From: Gemmatimonadaceae bacterium | GTDB taxonomy: Bacteria > Gemmatimonadota > Gemmatimonadetes > Gemmatimonadales > Gemmatimonadaceae | NCBI GenBank assembly: GCA_025453745.1 | Contig: JALOPS010000018.1 | Location: 1-34,223, forward strand | Length of the DNA: 34,223 bases | Direction: 5' to 3' | In this document: in pieces, positions 25,411-33,581 of the stretch | Numbering within the stretch: position 1 is the stretch's first letter | Layout: every line of letters starts with the position of its first letter | The notes under the pieces: generated by a model | Told to the model about the DNA's origin: nothing | The model's database searches: none | Seen by the model: only the letters and a program-made list of their open reading frames with translations | Program-made: the position numbers and the translations under genes

Positions 25411-26526
25411 TCAGTCGAGCAATCGCAGCGGCATCACGAGGCAGAGATACTGTGCCGGATCATCCCACCCGTCGGGCTCGATCGTGGTTGCCTTCTCCGG
25501 CGCCTTGAACGAGAGCTTCACGCTGTCGGTCGGCAGTTGGCGAAGGATCTCGAGCAGGTAACTCGCGTTGAAGCCGATCTCGAGCTGATCGCCCGTGTAG
25601 CTGACCTGGATCTCGTCGCTCGCATCGCCCAGGTCGGGCGTGGTGGCCGAGAGCTTGCACATTCCCGCGTTGAGTGCGAGCCGAATCCGGTGCGTCTGGT
25701 CGCTCGCGACAATGGACATCCGCTTGAGCGCGCCGGTCAACGCCTGCCGGTCGGCAATGCAGATGCGATCATTGTCCTTGGGGATGACCTGCTCGTAGTT
25801 CGGATACGGTCCTTCGATGAGCCGCGTGAAGACGCTCGTGATCGGCGAGCGGAAGCCAAGGTGGTTGTCGCCACGCGCGATCTCGAGCTCCTCTTCGGCG
25901 GGGAAGAGGCGGCGCACCTGATCGAGCGCCTTGGGCGGTACGATGAGATCGCTCGGGTTTGCGGGTGCGCCGTCACCGAGCGGCAGCTCCATCTTGGCCA
26001 GACGATGGCCGTTGGTGGCCACCATGCGCATGCGATCGCTCTTGAGCTCCCAGAGGACGCCGTTGAGGATCGGTCGCGACTCTTCGGTGGACGCGGCAAA
26101 CGCCGTGTGCTGAATGAGCTTCTGCAGCTCGCTCGATTTGATGCGCCAGGACTCGCCGAAGCGCACGACCGGAAAGGCGGGGAACTCGTCCTTGGCGAGC
26201 CCGAGCAGCTTGAACTTGGAGCGCCCGCACTCGAGGGAGATCCGTTGCTCGCCGCTCGAGGCGATCTTGACGGGCGAGGGGGGCAGTTCGCGGGCGATCT
26301 CGGAGAGCTTGCGCGCGGGAATCGTGATTGCACCCTGGCTCTCGACATCCGCGGAGACTTCGGTGCTGATCGCGATGTCGAGATCGGTGGCGGAGAGTTT
26401 GACGCCGCGCTCGGTCGTCTCGACGAGGAGGTTCGACAGCACCGGCAGCGTGGAGCGCGCCGGCACGGCGGCCTGCACGGTGTTGAGACCTTCCAGGAGC
26501 TTCTCGCGGGAGATCGTGAAGCGCAT
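25411..26526 (-). CDS. dnaN: DNA polymerase III beta subunit (sliding clamp)
   Basis: DnaN forms the dimeric ring that holds polymerases on DNA. The 371 residues are typical. It begins MRFTISREKLLEGLNTVQAAVPARSTLPVLSNLLVE, the conserved start of the family; ATG 26526 is therefore preferred to GTG 26568. Domain repeats are visible: LSATDLDIAISTEV in domain 1, FAASTEESRPILNGVLWEL in domain 2, and the C-terminal end LCLVMPLRLLD, where partner peptides bind (the usual M-P-x-R-L ending is intact). It is downstream of dnaA on the same strand across the origin-like gap. A strong hairpin follows the stop. Confidence 0.97.
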   Translation of the reverse strand: MRFTISREKLLEGLNTVQAAVPARSTLPVLSNLLVETTERGVKLSATDLDIAISTEVSADVESQGAITIPARKLSEIARELPPSPVKIASSGEQRISLECGRSKFKLLGLAKDEFPAFPVVRFGESWRIKSSELQKLIQHTAFAASTEESRPILNGVLWELKSDRMRMVATNGHRLAKMELPLGDGAPANPSDLIVPPKALDQVRRLFPAEEELEIARGDNHLGFRSPITSVFTRLIEGPYPNYEQVIPKDNDRICIADRQALTGALKRMSIVASDQTHRIRLALNAGMCKLSATTPDLGDASDEIQVSYTGDQLEIGFNASYLLEILRQLPTDSVKLSFKAPEKATTIEPDGWDDPAQYLCLVMPLRLLD

Positions 26527-26877
26527 GCGAACGGGGCTCTCGAGGGCGCGGGGGATCGGCACGTCCACGCTGATGCGCGGGCGTCACGCCGACATCACGC
26601 GGGCGGATGGCTGGGCGTGTGGACGAACTACTGTAGTACAGGAGTAAACAGAGAAAACTAGTAGCAGTAGTAGAGCGCGTGGAACTGTGGAAGAACGCGC
26701 CAACCGCCGGCCGCACACGAAGATAGGGGTCGACGCACGTGTGGACGCGGGTGTTGGTCGGCGGGTAGTGGTGGGGAATTCGCGCAGACCGTGGGGCGCG
26801 CGGCGTGCGGACGTGGGGATTCCCGGGGAAACGCCGGGGAGAGATGGGAGGTGATGTGGGCGGCGTGTGGAGAGCGG
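26527..26877. other. Predicted chromosomal replication origin (oriC)
   Basis: The gap between dnaA and dnaN contains no gene. It has several DnaA-box cores oriented the same way on the plus strand: TGTGGACGA 26618-26626, TGTGGAAGA 26686-26694, TGTGGACGC 26740-26748 and TGTGGAGAG 26866-26874 (TGTGGATAA is the consensus complement). It also has a locally AT-rich stretch at 26626-26664 and a DnaA-trio array beside two boxes. Most boxes keep only the TGTGG core, so binding strength is uncertain. The place, gene order and the trio array together make this the best oriC candidate. Confidence 0.85.
26659..26694 (-). promoter_or_regulatory. Basal unwinding element: DnaA boxes plus DnaA-trios
   Basis: On the minus strand the order is box TCTTCCACA (26694-26686, seven of nine), a second box-like AGTTCCACG (26686-26678), a 4-base GC-rich spacer, then CTACTACTGCTACTA (26673-26659). 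The opposite strand of the last part is TAGTAGCAGTAGTAG, five trios of 3'-GAT-5' type (one is GAC). This matches the layout of the basal origin-unwinding system described in Bacillus subtilis. Confidence 0.8.
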
Positions 26878-28278
26878 CTACCGCGCCCCCTCGAGCTGCT
26901 TGCGGACCTTGAGCACGCGCTCCGCGAACAGCGGATCGGCGGCAGATTCGGCAGACACTCGCTCCAGGCTGTGAATGACCGTCGAGTGATCGCGACCGCC
27001 GAAGGCATTGCCGATCTCGACGAGCTGGAGTCCCAGGAGATCGCGGCAGAGATGCATCGCCACCTGTCGCGGGACGGTGAGCACCTTGGTGCGCGTCTTC
27101 GAGCGCAGCCCTTCGGTCGTGACGCCCCACTCGCGGGCGACAGCCTGCTGGATGGTCGAGAGCGTCACGCGGGGGAGGCCTGCGGCCAGCGCGGCGTCCG
27201 GGTAGGGATCATCCGCATCGCGAATGCTGTCGCGCAGCGCTTCGCGCGCGAGATCGACGGTGATGTCGCGGTGTTTGAGCGACGCGTAGGCGATGAGTTT
27301 GATCATCGACCCCTCGAGCTCACGCACGCTCGACTCGATGTGGGTCGCGACGAAGTTCAGGACGTCGTCCGGGATGGCGAACTCGAGGTGATCGACGTGC
27401 GCCTTCTTGCGCAGAATGGCGATCCGGTGCTCGAGCTCCGGCTTGCCGACATCGGCCACCATCCCCCAGGCGAAGCGGGAGACGAGGCGCGCCTCGAGGC
27501 CGTCGAGCTCCTGGGGCGGCCGATCCGAGGTGAGGACGACCTGTCGCCCCGCCTCGTAGATCGCATTGAACGTGTGGAAAAATTCCTCCTGGACGGCCTG
27601 TTTGCCGCGGAGAAACTGGACGTCGTCGACGAGGAGGAGGTCGGTCTCCCGGTACTTCCGCCGAAACTCATGCGTCGTCCGCGACTGCAAGGACTCGACG
27701 AATTCGTTGGTGAACTTTTCGGCGCCGATGTACGTGATGCGGAAGTTGCCGTCGCGAGCCATGAGCTCGTGGGCGACGCCATGCATCAGGTGGGTCTTGC
27801 CGAGCCCGGTTTCTCCCCAGATGAAGAGGGGGTTGTAGTGGCCTCCGGGCGCTTGGGCGACGCCCTGTGCGGCGGCGGCGGCGACGTCGTTGGACTTGCC
27901 GATGACGAACTGGTCGAACGTATATCGAGGGTTAAGCGTCGCGTTGATGCGCGGCTTCTGTCTCTGGTGTGGCGCCTCTTCCGGAGGAGGAGCCACGAAG
28001 ATGTCGATCTGCGCGTTGTTGATGCGAGTGTCCGTGACCTTGAGCCGGATGGTGATCGGGTGACCGATCGCGACGGGGGCGGCCTGCTCGAGGGCAACGC
28101 GGTGCTTGGTCTCGACCCAGTCCACCGCGAACTGATCCGGCGCGCCGAGTGTGAGGGTGTGGCCCTCGATGGAGACGGGCTCAAGGATATCGAGCCAGGT
28201 GCGGACCGTTTGCTCGGGGAGCGTCTCGCGGGCGCGGGCGAGCAGCCGATTCCAGGTCTCCGCCGAGGTGAGCGACAT
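26878..28278 (-). CDS. dnaA: Chromosomal replication initiator DnaA
   Basis: DnaA is the AAA+ initiator that binds DnaA boxes and melts the origin. The 466 residues have domain I at about 1-80 (WNRLLARARETLPEQTVRTWLD), a short linker, and the AAA+ core beginning NPRYTFDQFVIGKSN. Walker A is GETGLGKT (155-162) and Walker B LLLVDDVQFL (214-223). The C-terminal DNA-binding domain carries PRQVAMHLCRDLLGLQLVEIGNAFGGRDHSTVIHS, whose GRDHSTV is the DnaA-box recognition helix. ATG 28278 fits the family start. The promoter upstream contains a DnaA box. dnaN follows beyond oriC on the same strand. Confidence 0.98.
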   Translation of the reverse strand: MSLTSAETWNRLLARARETLPEQTVRTWLDILEPVSIEGHTLTLGAPDQFAVDWVETKHRVALEQAAPVAIGHPITIRLKVTDTRINNAQIDIFVAPPPEEAPHQRQKPRINATLNPRYTFDQFVIGKSNDVAAAAAQGVAQAPGGHYNPLFIWGETGLGKTHLMHGVAHELMARDGNFRITYIGAEKFTNEFVESLQSRTTHEFRRKYRETDLLLVDDVQFLRGKQAVQEEFFHTFNAIYEAGRQVVLTSDRPPQELDGLEARLVSRFAWGMVADVGKPELEHRIAILRKKAHVDHLEFAIPDDVLNFVATHIESSVRELEGSMIKLIAYASLKHRDITVDLAREALRDSIRDADDPYPDAALAAGLPRVTLSTIQQAVAREWGVTTEGLRSKTRTKVLTVPRQVAMHLCRDLLGLQLVEIGNAFGGRDHSTVIHSLERVSAESAADPLFAERVLKVRKQLEGAR

Positions 28279-28359: not shown

Positions 28360-28389
28360 ATGGTACGACTCCTATGTGGATAAAGTCAA
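28360..28389 (-). promoter_or_regulatory. dnaA promoter with a perfect DnaA box in the spacer
   Basis: Read on the minus strand, TTGACT (28389-28384) is a five-of-six -35, then 18 bases, then TACCAT (28365-28360) as a four-of-six -10. The perfect consensus box TTATCCACA (28383-28375) fills the first half of the spacer. DnaA bound there would block RNA polymerase, the standard logic of dnaA autorepression. The transcript would start near 28353, about 75 bases before ATG 28278. Confidence 0.75.
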
Positions 28390-32630: not shown

Positions 32631-33581
32631 GCGGCCGGCCACGTTGGGCACCGGGGCGGCATCGCCGACGACGGAGAGCTCCGAGGCCGACGCACGCACG
32701 GCCCACGCCGGGCCGCGTGCGAGCAGCGACCCTTCGACCAGCTTGGCGCCCATGTAGTAGCCGGCGCGCTCGGGCATGACGACGTCGGGCGTCAACGTGC
32801 GCGCATCGTCGCTCATGCCGCCGCTCAGGTAGCGCAGTCGCAAGCCGAGGCCATTGCGATCGAGATCGTGTGCCATGACACGCGCGATCATCGGCTCGAG
32901 CTCGCGCACGCGCTGGAACTGCTTGCGCTGGTAGCCGAAGTACTCCCACGCCGCGTGATTGGGGCTGACGAGGCGGGAGACGTGTACGGCGAGCCCTTCG
33001 TTGACGAGCAGCTCGCGCAAGGAGGCGCGTCGCCCCGTCTCCCAGTAGGAGTAGTAGCCGTCGGCGTCGTCGATGAGCGTGTGCATCTCGCTCCGGCTGT
33101 CGGGCGCGGTGTAGCGGACGGCGTGCGCGATCTCGTGCGCCAGCCACATCGGGATCAGCTCGGGGTCGAGTCCCAGCCCCTGCGTCGTGGGGTTCTGGAC
33201 GCTCGTGAAGTGCTCGAGGCAGACGAAGGCGGTGCCGCGTCCGTCGACCACGAGTTCGCCGGCATTGGCGGCGCCCACACCGACCATGAGCACGACATCG
33301 AGCGGCCCGCCGAAGCCCACGAGCTCGCGCACGGCGTCTTCGGTGCGCTCGGCCAAGCCGACGATGTCGAAGCGCGCGAGCGTGGCACGCAGGTCATCAC
33401 GATCAGCGCGCGTGGTGAGGCGAACGATCTCCTCGACGTGCGGACCGCTGGGGTCGATGACGTAGTTGTCCCAGTACGCGTGCAGGAGCGGGCGATGCCG
33501 CTCGAAGTAATCGTAGTACGCACCGACACGATCGCTGCTGTCGAGGACTGCGAGGAATTCGGGCAGCAGGTTGATGACCAT
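32622..33581 (-). CDS. Predicted zinc metalloprotease (DUF2268-like)
   Basis: This 319-residue protein lacks a signal peptide from ATG 33581, so it is probably cytoplasmic. It has a gluzincin-type active site: HEIAH at residues 149-153 and a downstream helix with Glu195 in LLVNEGLAVHVSR as the likely third zinc ligand. The context (LIPMWLAHEIAHAVRY, then EGLAVHVSR) resembles the DUF2268 putative Zn-protease family, but the assignment is from pattern only. The open frame extends upstream to 33707 with a shadow-like, Arg/Ala-rich translation, which I exclude. It converges on mnmE and lies downstream of upp on the same strand, with a 238-base gap that holds no recognised element. Confidence 0.72.
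   Translation of the reverse strand: MVINLLPEFLAVLDSSDRVGAYYDYFERHRPLLHAYWDNYVIDPSGPHVEEIVRLTTRADRDDLRATLARFDIVGLAERTEDAVRELVGFGGPLDVVLMVGVGAANAGELVVDGRGTAFVCLEHFTSVQNPTTQGLGLDPELIPMWLAHEIAHAVRYTAPDSRSEMHTLIDDADGYYSYWETGRRASLRELLVNEGLAVHVSRLVSPNHAAWEYFGYQRKQFQRVRELEPMIARVMAHDLDRNGLGLRLRYLSGGMSDDARTLTPDVVMPERAGYYMGAKLVEGSLLARGPAWAVRASASELSVVGDAAPVPNVAGRAR

Follow-up and report, generated by a model that had tools for sequence, protein, structure and literature searches.

The gap between dnaA and dnaN in an uncultured Gemmatimonadaceae bacterium raises the question of how the chromosome is opened for replication in Gemmatimonadota, for which a literature search found no experiment on any origin. 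The window, which is the whole 34,223-nucleotide contig JALOPS010000018.1 of assembly GCA_025453745.1, comes from a fragmented MAG (4.7 Mb in 521 contigs); judged by DnaA, the nearest relatives belong to the Gemmatimonadaceae and Gemmatimonadales. We conclude with high confidence that it contains a Gemmatimonadaceae oriC which is opened by a basal unwinding system (BUS), and that origins of this kind include a conserved, short trio-like motif on the opposite strand, which the original prediction had missed.

Both flanking genes lie on the minus strand, dnaA (466 amino acids) at 26878..28278 (TIGR00362, E 8.5e-148) and dnaN at 25411..26526 (TIGR00663, E 4.1e-96), so the gap reads, in this order, dnaA, boxes, trios, AT-rich core, dnaN, as does incC of Bacillus subtilis. 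The longest dnaN open reading frame begins earlier, at GTG 26568. Because the TIGR00663 match starts only at residue 15, the true start is probably the ATG at 26526, a placement judged against relatives. The gap holds six TCCAC[A/G] cores, compared to 0.62 in shuffles.

The original prediction of a DnaA box, a second box core, a four-nucleotide spacer, five trios and an AT-rich flank was confirmed, with boxes, spacer and trios at 26659-26694. On the dnaA (minus) strand, box 1 of the BUS, found by sequence scan (TCTTCCACA, 26694-26686, two mismatches), is followed by the weak, co-oriented box 2 (AGTTCCACG, 26686-26678, four mismatches, its TCCAC core recovered by the scan), the GC-rich spacer CGCT (26674..26677) and CTACTACTGCTACTA, with the five trios CTA CTA CTG CTA CTA at 26673-26659. 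The plus strand, which is the trio strand, accordingly reads exactly TAGTAGCAGTAGTAG at 26659..26673 (5'-TAG TAG CAG TAG TAG-3', or 3'-GAT GAT GAC GAT GAT-5'), for which shuffles expect 0.00 matches at up to two mismatches. Compared to the 3'-GAT-5' consensus, four units are GAT and one is GAC, with the middle A in all. Directly past the trios the AT content climbs from about 30% to 60%, and the core at 26634..26658 between the two trio elements, with an AT fraction of about 0.60 where its surroundings have about 0.30, is the probable unwinding element.

Predicted BUS elements have been surveyed in 1755 bacterial origins (PMC8287927), and the rule described there calls for three or more NAN trios no further than 16 nt from a box with at most two mismatches, and for a second box with at most four. 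The window satisfies this rule: TCTTCCACA lies within that distance of five such trios, with 12 nt from box 1 to the first trio, inside the survey's reported peak of 10-13 nt, and AGTTCCACG, with four mismatches, sits co-oriented between box 1 and the trios. The main text of the survey does not mention Gemmatimonadota by name. Reversal of the boxes abolishes the B. subtilis BUS (PMC6669920), and those of the window have the working orientation.

The trio array alone is no proof, because coding DNA elsewhere also contains short CTA repeats by chance. Within the 4.7 Mb MAG, the 15-mer has no second exact copy, and one further site differs from it by one mismatch. A near match with two mismatches, CTACTACTCCTACTGG, lies on the minus strand at 33042-33057 of the window, far from the dnaA-dnaN gap. 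The weight of the argument lies in the context of the array and in the conservation of that context.

We compared dnaA-dnaN gaps taken from about 130 genomes of Gemmatimonadota. Nearly all contain a TCCACA-like core followed by CTCTACTAC..CTACTAG, or a sequence close to it, and then an AT-rich stretch; within the family, order and class of the window, nearly every relative has a BUS-like array in the gap, and box cores occupy the box 1 position in nearly all of them. The trios are thus conserved in the same place across the phylum, the outcome of the gap alignment among relatives that the original prediction had named as a check. When the strict pattern CCAC-N(4-14)-CTACTACNNCTACTA was scanned over 99 whole genomes, 19 had matches, all within the dnaA-dnaN gap as judged by dnaA coordinates; its reversed control gave only scattered matches. 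A strict rendering of the published BUS rule is satisfied by only 47 of 114 loci; most of the shortfall stems from boxes with three mismatches, which are common, or from a single CGA trio.

The arrays also vary. In many Gemmatimonadales gaps (for instance L008, L012, L016 and L021) the third unit is often CGA (CTACTACGACTACTAG), which violates the middle-adenine rule of the trios at one fixed place. Several groups within the sister orders carry altered arrays. In one of them (L162, L278, L281, L283-L285), CTATGATGA(T/C)GA replaces CTACTACTA beside the boxes, although the trio-pocket residues of DnaA are unchanged.

The best PDB match of the window DnaA is B. subtilis DnaA (8btg), in which E183, N187, R202 and E228 form the pocket that captures the trio bases (PMC10721633). 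Their equivalents are identical in the window protein and in almost all aligned relatives, with R202 replaced by His in two. In the numbering of the window DnaA, the pocket includes N191, R206, E232, V194 and L197; the hydrophobic positions are substituted (I190 to V, I193 to L).

Further DnaA boxes lie outside the BUS. Within the gap, the scan found TCGTCCACA (26618..26626, minus strand, two mismatches), which lies beyond the opposite-strand element and is co-oriented with the BUS boxes, and CTCTCCACA at the dnaA end (26866..26874, minus strand, two mismatches). A perfect box, TTATCCACA, is located upstream of dnaA (28375..28383, minus strand); the gap boxes of the original prediction were recovered, but it had left this one unmentioned. 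Because boxes with at most one mismatch are strongly enriched upstream of dnaA in relatives (86, compared to 3.0 in shuffles), we expect a bipartite origin like that of B. subtilis as the probable arrangement. The BUS boxes of Gemmatimonadota mostly have two or three mismatches versus none to two in Bacillota, so that the degeneracy noted earlier is correct, but as a trait of the lineage; the stronger dependence of initiation on the trios that was predicted from it is a conjecture. Many Gemmatimonadaceae (L002, L003, L004, L008, L012, L251-L256) share a conserved GTA(G/A)(C/G)TTnC(A/G)GCG element, which precedes the BUS boxes by about 20-35 nt and does not resemble a recognisable DnaA box.

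GC skew, read from sampled 20-kb stretches of complete relatives, gives a mixed picture of where the origin lies, and the skew within the window itself is uninformative. The single contig of G021, with dnaA at its start, has positive skew from 60 kb to 1.9 Mb and negative skew from 2.2 Mb to the end, so that the sign changes fall at dnaA and around 2.05 Mb. In G132 the change comes somewhere from 3.40 to 3.69 Mb, no more than about 0.3 Mb away from its dnaA at 3.688 Mb, and the skew of G168 is weak and mixed. On contig 1 of G223 (L191-L210), the 2.0 Mb position that holds dnaA and a BUS-like array is inside one skew arm, far from the negative-to-positive switch near 4.2 Mb; misassembly, an inversion or a displaced origin may account for this mismatch.

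From the same arrangement in nearly all of the about 130 genomes, the conserved DnaA pocket and the skew of two relatives, we therefore deduce a basal unwinding system. The melting mechanism of the original prediction is largely supported: the sequence, order, orientation and spacing of the elements, their conservation across the phylum and the conservation of the DnaA pocket were all observed here, and the skew of G021 and G132 switches at or near dnaA. By analogy with B. subtilis and other species, DnaA would bind the co-oriented boxes at 26678-26694 as duplex DNA, and its AAA+ domains would extend as a filament onto the plus-strand trios from 26673 to 26659. This filament would capture the 3'-GA bases and stretch the plus strand, the AT-rich core would open towards dnaN, and helicase loading could follow. 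A probable task of the remaining boxes, both the high-affinity one upstream of dnaA and those in the gap, is to concentrate DnaA.

The motif on the opposite strand of these origins faces the main array and, across the phylum, lies about 25-45 nt past the array start. In the window it consists of two units (5'-CAG TAG-3' on the dnaA strand, CTACTG on the plus strand) at 26628..26633, minus strand, 40 nt from the array start. At +24..+46 from the array start, an interval that was picked after the data had been seen, [TC]AG[TC]A occurs in 53 of 98 deduplicated loci, compared to 11.7 expected from dinucleotide shuffles (sd 3.0, maximum of 100 shuffles 21). Over the whole region AG[TC]AG is present in 41 of the 98 loci (15.6 expected), and its same-strand, reversed and complemented controls are at or below chance. 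It was found in none of 42 Bacillota gaps, and in none of 14 single loci from other phyla within the tested interval. When the same region was searched for motifs without bias, Gemmatimonadota yielded the opposite-strand motif, whereas Bacillota yielded the ribosome-binding site of dnaN. Because loci share descent even after deduplication, z-scores for such counts overstate independence; the stronger arguments are the tight spacing, which is independent of gap length, and a held-out test of the box-plus-trio arrangement described below. The offset of the motif from the main array varies with an sd of 6.5, versus 55.6 for its distance to the dnaN start. Since its position thus tracks the array and not dnaN, a dnaN promoter or ribosome-binding site was rejected as its identity. 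The conservation of the motif is directly observed; its function is a matter of sequence-based interpretation, and it might help to open or load the other strand.

Such a role could take the form of a BUS that works from two sides, with a second DnaA filament on the opposite-strand trios, so that both strands of the AT core would be captured and the loading of two helicases guided. We consider this somewhat unlikely, although the enrichment of the motif, its absence from the Bacillota gaps, its recovery by the unbiased search and its tight offset to the array all speak in its favour, as do the sister orders. There, an inverted DnaA box often accompanies the motif, and a mirror-image box-plus-trio arrangement is present in 15 of 20 loci, compared to 4.6 in shuffles and to none of the 20 on the same strand. 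As this enrichment was found after the fact, 20 further sister-order genomes were scored as a held-out set with unchanged scorer and threshold; after removal of near-duplicates and weak arrays, five of the 10 remaining loci carried the arrangement (1.3 expected, sd 1.0, largest value 4 over 100 shuffles). From these two sets, a mirror-image BUS appears plausible in the sister orders. In the window, the facing trios are present, but the element is short, and the mirror image is incomplete, because the box beyond the opposite trios (26618-26626) points the same way as the main boxes; inverted boxes beside opposite trios are enriched only in sister orders. The nearest box is likewise co-oriented in most Gemmatimonadaceae; among 53 loci of this family, 24 have a co-oriented and five an inverted box core at +45..+105. 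The mirror enrichment is weak in these loci, where 17 of 53 score (8.1 in shuffles) and 11 do so on the same strand, and family f2 shows none (6 of 21 versus 5.0); Bacillota score 16 of 42, compared to 18.4 in shuffles. The complete model, in which trios on both strands face each other across the AT core and DnaA captures both strands and sets up both helicases, with a full mirror BUS including the inverted box in the sister orders, is put forward as a tentative and unlikely one.

The same geometry could reflect the arms of an inverted repeat, the selected feature being a hairpin on the displaced strand or on the dnaA-dnaN transcript. In Gemmatimonadaceae, the left and right arms of a genome are indeed more complementary to each other than to arms of equal GC content taken from other genomes (by +0.72 nt, p 0.0009; for energy, p 0.0014), with a mean hairpin z of -1.12 (sem 0.29). 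This covariation of the arms is absent in f2 and the sister orders, where hairpin z is about -0.3, and in the window the hairpin does not outperform shuffles (z -0.20 at -3.4 kcal/mol). As only one family shows covariation and the window itself shows no advantage over shuffles, we reject the hairpin as a general explanation and regard selection for it as quite improbable. Binding by a different factor is a real possibility, if short of a probable one: the motif may be the border or binding site of, for instance, the dnaN transcription start, an operator of the helicase such as DciA, or a nucleoid protein, and merely resemble trios. The genome has a gene for DciA (PF05258, E 1.1e-16), and the strand opposite the trios of B. 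subtilis is known to be read by a protein other than DnaA, namely DnaD (PMC10201434), but the tie of the motif to the array instead of the dnaN start counts against a promoter or ribosome-binding site.

Known systems share parts of this arrangement. With the B. subtilis BUS (DnaA-boxes 6/7 and trios; PMC6669920, PMC10721633), the window has in common the location between dnaA and dnaN, two co-oriented boxes, a short GC-rich spacer, the strand and direction of the trios, the AT-rich core and the DnaA pocket. Its boxes are weaker, with two and four mismatches, and Gemmatimonadota add the opposite-strand motif, which was not seen in the 42 Bacillota gaps. The oriC of Thermotoga maritima, with its TAG-repeat eTrio and inverted DnaA box (PMC10316083), likewise combines TAG repeats bound as a single strand with mixed box orientation, but its repeats, as described, are on one strand only, unlike those of Gemmatimonadota. 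The DnaD recognition element of B. subtilis (PMC10201434) is also a conserved second-strand signal at the unwinding site; DnaD recognises it immediately across from the trios, whereas in Gemmatimonadota the signal resembles a trio repeat and is placed where the AT core ends on its far side.

A BUS is already predicted in most bacteria, and the array of the window is a further case of a well-known kind. Our data extend this mechanism, with dense comparative evidence, to Gemmatimonadota. The opposite-strand motif, which makes the origins of this phylum a variant of the BUS, is the more important result. How two helicases are loaded on opposite strands has been called unsolved (PMC10721633; PMC10201434), and an origin with trio-like repeats on both strands would offer a direct test of an answer to this problem that relies on DnaA only.
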